Shown here in pieces: positions 1-44,168 of a DNA stretch of 64,000 nt. Origin of the DNA: Paratrimastix pyriformis. Its lineage: Eukaryota; Preaxostyla; Paratrimastigidae. The DNA is taken from positions 97,380-161,379 of the forward strand of contig JAPMOS010000089.1 of NCBI GenBank assembly GCA_027972325.1, in the 5' to 3' direction. Position 1 is the stretch's first letter; each line of letters begins with the position of its first letter. The notes under the pieces were generated by a model. That model saw nothing but the letters and a program-made list of their open reading frames with translations, searched no databases and was not told the DNA's origin. A program made the position numbers and the translations under genes.

Positions 1-630
1 AAGGTCATCCGGCGCCACCTGCGCAGCCCCTCGGCCGACCCGGACGCCGACCGGGAGGAGCGCTGGTGGCTGCTGGTGGACATGGTGCGCGGGCTGGCCT
101 ACCTGCACGGCAAGCCCTTCGAGCAGAACGACCGCCGGGTGCTGCACAACGACATCAAGCCGGCCAACGTGCTGCTGCGCCGCGACCCGGCCACGGGCCG
201 ACTGATGGCCCTGATGGCCGACCTGGGCATGGCCTGCGAGTACACGGGCGGCTCGGCCAACTACGGGCTGCTCATCCGGGGCACGCCCGGCTTCATGGCG
301 CCCGAGCTCTACGCGGGCACGGCCGAGGGACAGGCCCTGCTGGAGGCCTCGGGGATGCGGCCGGGCAACACGCCCGCGACGGACGTCTACGCGATGGGTG
401 TGACGCTGTTCTGCCTGTACACCCAGACGGACACGGCCCACAAGACCGAGGAGCGGCCCTCGGAGGAGGAGCTGCGTGAGGCCTTCGCCGAGGTGGGCGA
501 ACTGGAGGCAGCGGCCGGCTTCCAGCCGGCGGTGGGGCTGGTGGGGCTGCTGGTGCGCATGTGCAGCGAGAACCCCACTGGCCGCCCCGACATGGCCCGC
601 ATCCGGGAGGCCGTCGAGCCCGTCGCCGCG
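1..630 (+). CDS. Locus A: Ser/Thr protein kinase C-lobe exon (5' end outside window)
   Basis: Open from base 1 in the frame that contains Met76. It encodes the C-lobe of a eukaryotic-type protein kinase: the catalytic loop reads LHNDIKPANVLL (HND where most kinases have HRD, with the catalytic Asp, Lys and Asn kept), the Mg-binding motif is ADLGMACE (DLG in place of DFG), the activation segment ends GTPGFMAPEL, and helix F reads TDVYAMGVTLF. The exon ends at GCG|GTCCGC, phase 0, matching the equivalent donor in loci B, C and D. The N-lobe exon must lie left of the window. The product is probably an intracellular Ser/Thr kinase fused to a coiled coil and LRRs, as in the paralogues. The kinase assignment is secure from motifs; the substrate is unknown. 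No lesion is visible in this exon. Confidence 0.8.
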
Positions 631-836
631 GTCCGCACCCCCCGCCAGCCCCGGGGTTTTGTGGGATGGGACCGCTGGATGTCCAGACTGTCTTGTCTGT
701 TCGTCTGTGCTGGCTGTTGATCTGTCTCTTTGTGGTCGCTGGCTGGGCTGGGCTGTCTGGCTCGAGGTGTGGTGGCGGTTTTGGTTCGGACGCCGCGCTG
801 GTTGGCCCAATGTCCAACGTTTGCTCCTTCCCCCAG

Positions 837-2594
837 GCCCTCGAGGAGGCGGCCCGCCGCAGGGCAGCCGAAGAGGAGGCAGCCCGTCGTAGGGCAGCAG
901 CCGAAGAGGAGGCAGCCCGCCGCAAGGCCGTCGAGGAGGCAGACCGCAGGGCAGCCGAAGAGGAGGCAGCCCGCCGCAAGGCAGCCGAAGAGGAGGCAGC
1001 CCGCCGCAAGGCAGCCGAAGAGGAGGCAGCCCGCCGCAAGGCCGTCGAGGAGGCAGCCCGCCGCAAGGCCGTCGAGGAGGCAGCCCGCAGGGCAGCCGAA
1101 GAGGAGGCAGCCCGCCGCAAGAGGAGGCAGCCCGCCGCAGCCCAGCGGAGGCGGAGGTCTGCTGGATGTGGGGGCTGGGTGGCGGAGCGAAGGCGCCTTG
1201 GCGAGGGCAACGTCGTGCCCGTTGTTCACACACGGCGTTCACTTGGCATCACTCCCTCCCCCCCAGCGAGCGGCGACCTTGGAATTGGAACGGACCCTGA
1301 CGGAGGGCGAGCGAGCCGCCCTCGATTTGGCCCGCCGCTGCACAGAGACGGAGGTCTGCCCTGTGGTGGCTGGTGGCTGGTGGCTGGCGCCGCGGGCAGT
1401 GGGGAGGGCGTGAAGGCGAGTGACGCTCATCGACGGGGGTGGCGGCGTCTGCTGATGGGATCGGGGCGGCCCCAGCTGGACCTCGGGAGGTGAGGGGGGC
1501 GCGCCAAGTTCATGGTGTGCCTGGCGGCCTGGCTGAAGACCAACCGCACCGTCACCAAGGTCTGCCTGCTGGCGACCGGCTCTCGCCCTTCGATATGGCT
1601 GCAGCAGGGTCCCGCCTTGCAACGCACTGGGCGGGCAGATGACCGCCTTGGGCAAGACAGGAGAGGCAGGTGACTTGGGCCTCGCCTTCTTCGTTGTGGC
1701 ACCCCACTCTGCTTTCCGCTCGCCCTCACCTCCACCATTGCTCGCACCACCCACTCGGTTTCGGCATCTCGGCCGCTCATCGGCTGCTGCTCTGCGGCCG
1801 TGGCACGGACGCTCCGCACCCGACCGGTGGTCATCGCCCATCTCAGCTCAACCTCCGCGGCAACGAGATTGGCGCCGAGGGGGCGCGTGTCCTTGCTGGG
1901 GCGCTGGAGCACAACACCAGCCTCCAAATGGCCCAGCCCAGGGAGGAGCGCGGACGAAGGGGCCCACCCAGCATGACACCCCACACCCCGCCGACCACAC
2001 CAGCCCCAACCCTGCCCCCGGTGTGGAGGTTGCCCCGTCGTTGTCGGCCCTTCGTTGTTGTTGCAGCCCCCACCGCCCGCCCGCCCGCCCGGCCACCCCA
2101 CTCTGCTTTCCGTTCGCCCTCACCTCCATCATCGCTCGCACCACCCATTCGGTTTCGGCCTCGGTCACTCCTCTGCTGCTTTGTGGCCATGGCACGGACG
2201 CTCCGCGCATGGCCGCCCCGGTGGTCATCGCCCATCTCTCAGCTCAACCTCATCTACAACCGGATTGGCGACGAGGGGGCGCGTGCCCTTGCGGGGGCGC
2301 TGGAGCACAACACCAGCCTCCAGCAGGTCTGCTGGCCCAGCCCAGGGAGGAGCGCGGACGAAAGGGGCCCACCGCACACCCCACACCCCGCCGACCACAC
2401 CACCCAGCCACCAGCCCCAGCCCCGCCCTGCCCCTGGCATGCCGCATCTCCGGCATCCGCCTCACCTTTTCGTCTTCCCCTTGCCCTTCCCCCCCGCTCC
2501 TCTTCATCTCATCCCGCAGCTTGACCTGTACCCAAAAATTGCAGATCCAATCCAGCGCCTCTTCCCGCCCACCCGTGTGCGCTTCTTGCACTAA
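837..2594 (+). pseudogene. Locus A: coiled-coil and LRR exons, decayed
   Basis: Continuation of the kinase gene. Exons: coil 837-1156 (starts after CCCCCAG, AEEEAARRR-type heptads), short helical exon 1267-1353 (29 codons), capping LRR 1476-1559, LRR 1847-1930, LRR 2243-2326 (exactly 84 nt), terminal exon 2520-2594 ending in TAA with the family motif IQRLF. Three independent lesions are seen. The coil exon is 320 nt long, not a multiple of 3, because about 10 nt are missing near 1121. The capping LRR has an in-frame TGA at 1491-1493. The first LRR has lost its CAG|GTCTGC donor (CTCCAAATGGCC replaces it). Locus A is therefore probably a pseudogene, unless the lesions are sequence errors. Only two ordinary LRRs remain, against 5 to 11 in the paralogues. 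Confidence 0.6.
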
Positions 2595-41890: not shown

Positions 41891-42104
41891 GTTTCCGCAG
41901 GATGCCAGACGCGAGGAGACGTCTGTCCCCCCACTCGAACTCACGCACGTCTCACAGACACAGAGAACCGGAGTGCCGCAGAGAGAGAGACATCCAGATC
42001 GACACAGAAAAAATAAAACGACTCCACCAGATTTACAATCCAAATCAGAGACCCTTGAATGCGACCACGGCCACCAACCCAAGCGCAAGTCGGGCCGCAT
42101 CTCC

Positions 42105-44168
42105 TCAGAACAGGAGGCCCACCAAGAGGTTGAATGCGATCACGGCCACCAACCCAAGCGCAGTCCGGCCGCGGTGATGCAAGAGCGATCCGAGCGCCCG
42201 CCGGGCGCAGGGCAGGGCGATCAGGATGATACAATGGCACCAGACGGCCACTTGGGAGGACACCCGAAAGACGGCCCAGAGTTGGCGGCGGGTCGAAATG
42301 CTCCGAGGCGACCTGAAGAGGGACGGTGCGTGTATTGCGTTATAGAGGGACGGTGCGTGTATTGCGTTGTGTGTGCGTTATGTGTGTGAGTCAGGCAACG
42401 ATGTCTGCGCGAGTGGGCAGGCGTGTCGTGGGGGGGTCTTCGCCAACAACAACAACAACAACATCATCAGCATCATCCAATCACCATCATCACCATCATC
42501 ATCATCATCATCATCATCATCATCATCATCATCATCCAATCATCATCCAATCATCATCATCATCATCATCTGATCATCATCATCATCATCATCATCATCA
42601 TCATCATCATCATCATCATCATCATCCAATCCTCATCATCAACAGATGCGTCGCGCGTCCGAAGGAATCGTCGTTAATCGGACGGGTGTGGCGGGTATGG
42701 TATGTGGGCGTTGGAGCAAAGGGGGCGAAAGGCCGTGCGTGCGAGTGTGTGAGGAGGCAGCGGCCGGGGTGTGCGGCGTGCTGGAGACGCAGCTTGGGGA
42801 CGGACATGCCCAGCCGTCGTAAGCCCGGGGGCTCGTAGTGCGAGACGCGCTCTTTGAGAGATCCCAGCACCGGAATGATCATGATGCACGAGAGCGCGAA
42901 GGGCGCGAAGAAGAGACCCCGCAGGGCCACCGGCCGCCCGCCCAGCCACATGCAGAGGCCCACGTACTCGGCTGTGGATAGGAGATTCGGAGTCGTGAGT
43001 GGCCAGGGATCGGCCACGAAACAGAAACACAAACAACACAGATATCCCCCACGGAATCTCGACTAATTGGAAACCCACAGAGTGGCAATGAACACAAGAC
43101 AGGAAGGAGGCTTCAAATCATTTTCCACGGACCTAAACACGGCACCCACGTAAAGAGCGATCCGACAACTTTGGCTCCGAAGTCGCGTTGATGGGCCAGA
43201 ACCCAAGCGAATCCCAGGGCAGGTAAGGCCATCGGTGACAGGACAACCCACCAGGGGATGTAGGCCAGCCATCGCCACGTGGGGTCGGCACGCATCGTCA
43301 GGGGCAGCAGAACGAGCCACAGGGCCACGCACACCCAAACGGTCCACTTGTCCCAGGTCCGCTCGAGGTACCGACGGGCGCGCGCCCTCGACCGCACGGC
43401 GCACACCGTCGAGACGGCCAGGGCGGGCAGCCAGGCCCGGGTGATGGAGATGGGCAGCAGCCCGTCCAGGCGGGCCAACGACAGGGCTGTGCTGGCCATC
43501 AGGGACAGCCAGGTCAGCCCGAAGAGCCGGTAGCAGGCCAGCGAGGGGGACCGGAGAGCGTTCAGGCACCAGGGCAGCAGGACGCCCGCACCCAGCAGGC
43601 AGGGCGTGCCCGCAAGCAACCAGGACCCCGTCAGGAGCCGCGAGGGGATCCAGAAGGGCACCACCCCATCGGCCTTGCAAACCAGTGCGTAGAAGCCGCT
43701 GTACAGCAGCCCCAGCATGACCGGCCGCGAGACGAGCGCGTAGCTGTGGTGCAACTCGTAGCTCACGTACTCACGCTTGGCGGCGCTCTTTGTCTTACGG
43801 ATCATGTCCGCACAGGACTTGCACCGGTCCTTGTACGACCAGCCCTCGGCCTCCCAGAGCTGGCGGGTCGTTTTGAGGGCATCGCCGACATCGTCGGGAA
43901 TCGCGGGCAGCATGACCTCCTCGAAGAGGCGCTTGTAGATGAAGTCTTGCTGGGAAACATCGTGAAATTGGCGGCTGACCCGAGAAACCACAGCCAGTTC
44001 GCTTGGAATGAGCCGCAGGAAGATGAGGCCGAGCACATCGTTGCTCAGGTCTGCATACGGTGCTTGAAAAGAAGAAACCTTAGTGGCCAGCTTGGATGAG
44101 CGTCGCAGGAGAGCCTTGGTGGCACCTGCCCTCTCCTTGGCAAGAGCCAAAAAACCGGCCACGGCCAT
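42105..44168 (-). CDS. F-box protein with multiple transmembrane helices
   Basis: Three exons: 43133-44168, 42806-42971 and 42105-42312 (TGA at 42105-42107). Both donors are GTCCGT and both acceptors end in CAG. The exons join in frame (1036 + 166 + 208 nt, 469 codons plus stop). Residues about 35-80 are an F-box: LSNDVLGLIFLRLIPSELAV, then SRVSRQFHDVSQQDFIYKRL. This is followed by at least 8 hydrophobic segments, for example LLTGSWLLAGTPCLLGAG, WVCVALWLVLLPL and, at the C terminus, TALGLVAVIAFNLLVGLLF. Start chosen at MAVAGFLALAK (GCCATGG context); the frame is open up to Met at 44450. F-boxes recruit SCF ubiquitin ligases, so this could be a membrane-anchored adaptor. The pairing is unusual. 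A distant likeness to TMEM185-type membrane proteins is only an impression. Confidence 0.78.
42455..42640 (+). repeat. ATC microsatellite in intron 2 of the F-box gene
   Basis: (ATC)n with a few CCAATCATC units, preceded by AACAACAAC. Lies between 42312 and 42806. Confidence 0.93.

Follow-up and report, generated by a model that had tools for sequence, protein, structure and literature searches.

The canonical donor, or 5' splice site, of nuclear introns is (A/C)AG|GU(A/G)AGU, a sequence complementary to the 5' end of U1 small nuclear RNA (snRNA) (PMC3488318), for which the consensus is AUACUUACCUG (PMC3033335). In Saccharomycotina, switches from A to U at the fourth position of the intron (+4) go with the loss of METTL16 or of SNRNP27K, or of one SNRNP27K methionine, while U1 is described as invariant, ACUUACC, wherever a U1 was found; a change of U1 nucleotide 5 to A is named there as a possible compensation (PMC10581693). 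For Amoebophrya, many non-canonical introns are described, and no U1 is reported to have been found (PMC7789003). A paper of 2023 remarks that earlier work could not definitively correlate donor variation with U1 sequence (PMC10599564). In this paper we examine the donors and the U1 genes of Paratrimastix pyriformis, a GC-rich eukaryote whose genome assembly (GCA_027972325.1) comprises 56.06 Mb in 495 contigs. The window, that is, the whole stretch of DNA that was analysed, is 64,000 nucleotides of contig JAPMOS010000089.1 (positions 97,380 to 161,379, forward strand). A gene family with kinase, coiled-coil and leucine-rich repeat (LRR) parts is present in it in four related copies, and it also contains an F-box gene, cysteine-rich exons and a DDE transposase. 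A first-pass annotation of this DNA had proposed that unrelated genes of the window share a donor GTCYG (Y, pyrimidine), that ordinary donors of the form GTRAGT (R, purine) are lacking, and that U1 should show either a matching change or tolerance.

Our analysis indicates that, in the major (U2-type) spliceosome, the code by which 5' splice sites are recognised has been altered by compensation, U1 nucleotides 5-6 having changed against donor positions +4 and +3 with the rest of the system little changed, and we assign this reading a probability of about 0.93. Two parts of it can be read directly from the sequence, namely the donor shift in predicted introns of unrelated genes and the identical AG at nucleotides 5-6 in all eight U1 genes found. 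From these we infer that RNA is made from the U1 genes and is what defines these introns, and that donors of the canonical kind have fallen out of use.

Donors were placed in housekeeping genes without reference to their motif. Pfam model searches of the genome gave 47 matches for CCT/Cpn60, 23 for the proteasome, 135 for kinesin and 39 for HSP70, from which all CCT/Cpn60 and proteasome matches, 58 of the 135 kinesin matches and 34 of the 39 HSP70 matches were used. Neighbouring exon matches with nearly adjoining profile coordinates were treated as a junction, and every GT...AG that kept the frame, contained no stop and gave the right number of residues within one was accepted as a candidate; only GT was demanded of the donor. 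After 36 further pairs had been skipped for gaps in the profile, 86 junctions were tested, of which 73 had at least one GT-AG solution with the right frame and length and 56 had exactly one donor.

GTCYG accounts for 38 of these 56 single donors and GTCNG (N, any base) for 45, and the purine at +3 with A at +4 that makes up the GTRAG feature of U2-type introns is found in none (0/56), in line with the lack of GTRAGT that had been claimed for the window. By pentamer the donors are GTCTG (22), GTCCG (16), GTCGG (6), GTTTG (3) and GTCGA (2), with GTCAG, GTTGG, GTGTC, GTGCG, GTTCG, GTCCT and GTCTT once each. Position +3 is C in 49, T in 5, G in 2 and A in none; position +4 is T in 27, C in 19, G in 9 and A in 1; and position +6 is C in 28, T in 21, G in 4 and A in 3. 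G stands at -1 in 48 donors and at +5 in 51. The resulting consensus, G|GT(C>U)(U>C>G)G(Y), is slightly wider than GTCYG, which is the commonest form but too narrow a description, since some donors have U at +3 or G at +4. Restriction of the donor to the window was likewise too narrow: the shift is real there, and housekeeping genes on other contigs share it. A GTCYG option was also available in 12 of the 17 junctions with several candidates.

As background we took all remaining GTs in the stretches tested (n=2327), of which 5.5% are GTCYG, 35.9% have C at +3 and 2.0% are GTRAG. Measured against it, the binomial probability of the observed number of GTCYG donors is 1e-34, and that of the observed number with C at +3 is 2e-15. 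Zero GTRAG in 56 would be met by chance with a probability of 0.32 at the 2.0% background; what gives the absence its weight is that GTRAG would be the main class in a normal genome. Wrong-phase controls gave GTCYG in 6 of 51 and 2 of 27 cases. When nine other dinucleotides were substituted for GT, between 14 and 52 of the 86 junctions yielded candidates and no pentamer occurred in more than 9, in comparison with 31 for GTCTG and 19 for GTCCG.

Conserved proteins are restored when exons are joined at such donors. Joining the exons of a BiP-type HSP70 across three introns (GTCTGG, GTCTGG and GTTTGT) gives a protein that aligns over residues 1-549 to BiP chains in the PDB (best E 2.2e-253) and is free of gaps at the joins. 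At the first junction either GTCTGG or GTTTGC, five bases further on, could be the donor, and GTCTGG was chosen. In the gene for SNRNP27K the introns start GTCTGC and GTCGGG, and by reading the joins restore the conserved block TTK|GKNVEGN...RYRQYMNRKG|AFNKPLD.

The genome was searched for U1 with the Rfam model (RF00003). Scoring covered 41 of the 992 first-look candidates, so the U1 counts are lower bounds: there are at least eight full-length matches (model positions 1-166), on eight contigs and with E values from 2e-10 to 4e-13, and no further U1 match at E <= 0.001 was present among the matches listed. All eight genes have the 5' end AUACAGACCUUG where the canonical end is AUACUUACCUG, and they start ATACAGACCTTG as against the consensus ATACTTACCTG. 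Within the stretch that pairs with donors, AG replaces UU at nucleotides 5-6, and U replaces G at nucleotide 11. The complement of this U1 start is CAAGGUCUGUAU, or AAG|GUCUGUAU. Nucleotides 5-6 face donor +4 and +3, exactly where the introns deviate from the standard, and of the two outcomes that had been foreseen for U1 it is the matching change, rather than tolerance, that was found. The canonical 11-mer ATACTTACCTG occurs 0 and 0 times on the two strands of the assembly, whereas the same 11-mer written backwards, used as a control, occurs 33 and 24 times.

Other features also point to U1. It was the best-scoring Rfam family in cmscan at the two of eight copies scanned, and the one copy that was folded forms a cloverleaf (z -3.38); the stem-loop 1 loop GAUCAC, an Sm-like site and a 3' stem-loop are present. 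By fold, best family and upstream element (below) we would class this RNA as U1, although it fails both the Rfam cut-off and the canonical 5' end. Pairing energies were computed for the 56 donors with each of the 16 possible dinucleotides at U1 5-6. The mean duplex energy is -4.03 kcal/mol with the canonical UU, which is tied last, and -8.69 kcal/mol with AG, which is second of the 16, and the donors are in this respect complementary to the genome's own U1.

The sequence TCCCATAA is found at a fixed distance upstream of 25 of the 27 U1, U2, U5 and U6 genes read (loci L001-L012 and L068-L082). It lies 59-60 bases before U1 (8/8, counted from CCCATAA), 58-60 before U2 (8/8), 52-54 before U5 (6/7) and 66-67 before U6 (3/4), and the two remaining genes, one U5 and one U6, carry it with a change of the first base. 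In total it occurs 29 times, both strands included, in the 299,438 bases of 102 loci. It is likely to be an snRNA promoter element.

The U6, U5 and U2 genes read show canonical key motifs: ACAGAGA in 4/4 U6 genes, GCCUUUUAC in 7/7 U5 genes, and GUAGUA in the 8/8 U2 genes read, from at least 10 U2 matches. A METTL16 homologue is present in the genome, as is an SNRNP27K homologue with a methionine in YRQYMNRKG, which, going by the human sequence, is probably the one numbered 141 in PMC10581693. Loss of METTL16 or SNRNP27K, the cause to be expected from the correlations in yeasts, was considered for the +4 shift and was rejected, as homologues of both are present. The donor shift appears to follow U1, not a loss of the U6 methylation axis.

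The most likely mechanism is that introns are defined when G|GU(C/U)(U/C/G)G pairs with a U1 that has AG at nucleotides 5-6. In such a duplex G6 would pair with C at +3, or with U by wobble, and A5 with U at +4, while the unchanged AUAC of U1 could pair with +5 to +8 and ACCU with -2 to +2. Introns would thus be marked by G|GU(C/U)(U/C/G)G(Y) and not by GURAGU. Wobble between G6 and U would account for the U at +3 (5/56), purines being nearly excluded from that position (2/56). After the departure of U1, U6 and U5 would probably receive the donor as they normally do. The ACAGAG box of U6, in its canonical form, is able to pair with U(+4)G(+5)U(+6) of GUCUGU, so that a change in U1 alone would have been enough. 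As to how the switch came about, we conjecture that, there being several U1 genes, a mixed pool of U1 could have carried the population through. In its widest form the proposal predicts that all functional U1 has AG at 5-6, that essentially all nuclear introns are GT(Y)(B)G (B, not A), that GTRAGT is no longer a working donor, and that U6, U5, U2, METTL16 and SNRNP27K have been kept; this we hold to be probable. If it is true, splicing in P. pyriformis would be a natural example of a system that is in part orthogonal to the one used by other eukaryotes. Under the compensation reading, the expressed U1 RNA would begin AUACAGACC and would be capped.

A number of observations weigh against compensation as described. 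In 13 of the 86 junctions there was no GT-AG solution, 5 of the 17 junctions with several candidates had no GTCYG option, and 11 of the 56 single donors depart from GTCNG. All eight U1 matches score 50.8-60.2 bits, under the Rfam gathering score of 69.5, and in the fold of the RNA alone (one copy) the 5' end of U1 partly pairs with the presumed Sm region. The fit of AG to the donors is strong but not optimal: GG pairs best on average (-10.49 kcal/mol), because +4 is C in 19 and G in 9 of the 56 donors. A is present at +7 in just 7 of 56 donors and C outnumbers T at +6 (28 and 21), so the U1 bases that face +6 and +7 are often unpaired; and where U at U1 nucleotide 11 predicts A at -3, that position is C in 18, A in 17, G in 11 and T in 10. 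U1-C was not found, the sole zf-U1 (PF06220) match among the matches listed (locus L067:1480-1640) having a WBP4-type appearance; this protein presumably resembles WBP4 and not U1-C, and we conclude nothing from it on U1-C.

The low U1 scores, together with an assembly in 495 contigs that may be incomplete, would also suit a different account, in which the AG-type genes are minor variants or pseudogenes, like the human variant U1 genes, and an unassembled canonical U1 does most of the splicing at donors that tolerate C at +3. Such a U1 would have to be missed while all eight copies found, on eight contigs, agree in their 5' end, match the model over its full length and share an upstream element with the U2, U5 and U6 genes; the canonical 11-mer is nowhere in the assembly, and UU is tied for the worst of the 16 dinucleotides in pairing with the donors. 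We consider this account improbable. It is still less probable that the introns belong to the minor spliceosome (U12-type), or are introner-like elements that remove themselves without recourse to U1. The U12-type donor motif is RTATCCTT, which these donors do not resemble, and by eye a pyrimidine-rich stretch precedes the AG of many of the introns; they lie in unrelated genes, and their commonest donor is a full match to the genome's U1.

A further account is that the motif is an artefact of the GC-rich base composition of this genome, introns having been placed by eye wherever GTCYG happens to fall. GTCYG is frequent in the window (201 and 206 on the two strands), so that the weight of any placement there rests on position and frame only, and in the background of the housekeeping stretches the base after GT is most often C, level with G (835 and 832 of 2327). 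The motif-blind placement (38/56 against 5.5%), the wrong-phase controls and the conserved proteins restored by the joins all speak against it; on the placement and those controls the artefact was rejected, and it has almost no probability left. Compensation between U1 and the donors is the reading that we retain.

Within the window, the exon ends of the kinase / coil / LRR genes carry the donors that had been named for them, GTCTGC at LRR, coil and N-terminal exons and GTCTGG at the kinase N-lobe. CAG|GTCTGG ends the N-lobe exon at 33407+, 27783- and 15180- (+ and - denote strand). The C-lobe exon ends in GTCCGC in three copies, at 631+, 34523+ and 26674-, as proposed, and in GTCCGG instead at 13737-. 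GTCTGC ends the coil exon at 1157+, the exon after the coil at 1354+, 35225+ and 25969-, and the LRR N-terminal exon at 1560+, 35444+, 25750- and 12987-. The donors concerned are as follows.

631..636, plus strand: kinase C-lobe donor GTCCGC; the intron is 631-836 and the next exon begins GCCCTCGAGG at 837
1157..1162, plus strand: coil exon donor GTCTGC; the intron is 1157-1266
1354..1359, plus strand: donor GTCTGC of the exon following the coil
1560..1565, plus strand: LRR N-terminal exon donor GTCTGC
2327..2332, plus strand: donor GTCTGC of an open 84-nucleotide LRR exon (one of the 19 of 21 described below)
12982..12987, minus strand: LRR N-terminal donor GTCTGC, second copy
13732..13737, minus strand: kinase C-lobe donor GTCCGG, second copy
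15175..15180, minus strand: kinase N-lobe donor GTCTGG, second copy
26669..26674, minus strand: kinase C-lobe donor GTCCGC, third copy; the exon matches Pkinase PF00069
27778..27783, minus strand: kinase N-lobe donor GTCTGG, third copy
33407..33412, plus strand: kinase N-lobe donor GTCTGG, fourth copy (inverted duplicate of the third)
34523..34528, plus strand: kinase C-lobe donor GTCCGC, fourth copy

The Pkinase match of the C-lobe exon in the third copy has an E value of 2.8e-17, and the N-lobe exon alone matches no Pfam family. The coil exon of the first copy seems, on a reading of its frames, to be frame-shifted near its end, in agreement with the small indels mentioned in the first-pass annotation. 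CAG|GTCTGC marks 21 LRR exon ends in the window, of which 19 close an open 84-nucleotide exon of phase 0 after an AG, and these 19 exons therefore join in frame. The claim that LRR exons join in frame through GTCYG does not extend to the other two ends, 36431+, where only a 72-nucleotide exon is open, and 25113-, where none is. A separate scan by peptide pattern found CAG|GTCTGC closing 12 of 13 LRR exons. Because recent paralogy and tandem copying gave rise to the LRR exons, they represent few independent events. The 84-nucleotide exons and their introns are tandemly repeated at 10367-12854, 21766-25676 and 35518-39448, and these copies could serve as a test of the rate at which donors decay. 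Two of the kinase/LRR gene copies are held in a 7-kb inverted duplication, 21324-28246 against 39928-32944, with 97.6% identity.

The F-box gene provides a case independent of the kinase/LRR copies. Its two introns had both been assigned the donor GTCCGT with an in-frame join of the exons, and a single frame of 469 amino acids to the stop was indeed obtained on splicing; unspliced, the frame stops at 351 amino acids.

42105..44168, minus strand: F-box gene of three exons, with ATG at 44168 and TGA at 42107-42105; F-box-like PF12937 match (E 2.3e-6) near the N-terminus
42972..43132, minus strand: F-box intron 1, GTCCGT...CAG, phase 1; the three exons join in one frame
42313..42805, minus strand: F-box intron 2, GTCCGT...CAG, phase 2; the three exons join in one frame

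Within intron 2 a long microsatellite occupies 42462-42641, reading (CAT)n, or (GAT)n on the strand of the gene, and similar arrays occur elsewhere in the window. Three cysteine-rich, sushi-like exons were also examined.

7423..7428, minus strand: donor GTCTGC of the sushi-like cysteine-rich exon 7632-7429
6694..6699, minus strand: donor GTCTGT of the sushi-like exon 6894-6700
6058..6063, minus strand: donor GTCTGT of the sushi-like exon 6258-6064

The lengths of all three are divisible by 3 and they therefore join to each other in frame, which bears out for these exons the in-frame join proposed for the sushi modules; two of the three have further GTs that keep the same frame. The sushi label is weak, with one of the three pieces matching Pfam PF00084 at E 0.0027, under the cut-off.

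Mobile and repeated sequences make up further parts of the window. Transposase frames lie at 19501-20292 on the minus strand, where the piece 19501-19878 matches DDE_3 (E 3e-10). Two long tandem arrays with a period of about 200 / 390 and 80% GC extend over 46075-48798 and 59733-62551, and their AT skew, in 2-kb steps, is opposite, -0.91 and +0.93. On the outside they flank inverted arms on which, from a reading of the frames, reverse transcriptase-like frames lie at about 51-53 kb and 55.7-57.3 kb and, on one arm only, an endonuclease-like frame at 58.4-58.7 kb. On the same kind of reading the window holds sequence like that of a long interspersed nuclear element.

The 5' end of U1 is among the most constrained of eukaryotic sequences, and here rewriting appears on both sides, in U1 and in the donors. 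A joint change in dozens of sampled donors and in every U1 gene found gives access to how a splice code gets rewritten, and the lineage could show which of the later steps (U6, U5, METTL16, SNRNP27K) truly require a purine at +3 and A at +4. Gene finders trained on GTRAG would probably place introns wrongly in this genome. Engineered suppressor U1 RNAs work on the same principle of pairing.

Among the entries listed by our literature searches we met none that describes donors of the GTC type together with a U1 changed to match, which is not to claim that none has been published. The nearest systems resemble this one in some respects and differ in others. The larvacean Fritillaria borealis, with its non-GT/AG introns, shares a genome-scale departure from the standard donor, but its U1 5' end is strictly kept and its changes lie in U2AF and N6-methyladenosine (m6A) (PMC13326754). 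The diplonemid S. specki naturally has a U1 whose 5' end is altered and which carries a stretch of C; that U1, however, is one of two, the other having the conserved end, whereas here all eight U1 genes found are changed and the donors as well (PMC12621601). Giardia lamblia is similar in that a divergent U1 pairs with a lineage-specific donor, and dissimilar in that its U1 retains the 5' terminal ACUUAC (PMC3510501). Saccharomycotina have in common with P. pyriformis a shift of donor preference away from A at +4 at the level of lineages, but in P. pyriformis U1 itself has changed and homologues of METTL16 and SNRNP27K are kept (PMC10581693). With canonical U2-type introns and the U1 of RF00003, finally, the system shares GT-AG ends, the U1 cloverleaf, pairing through the U1 5' end and canonical U2, U5 and U6 motifs, and it departs from them in having AG in place of UU at U1 nucleotides 5-6 and mostly C and a pyrimidine, not a purine and A, at donor +3 and +4. 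By their GT-AG ends and their complementarity to U1 we would place these introns with the U2 type, though they fail its GTRAG feature.

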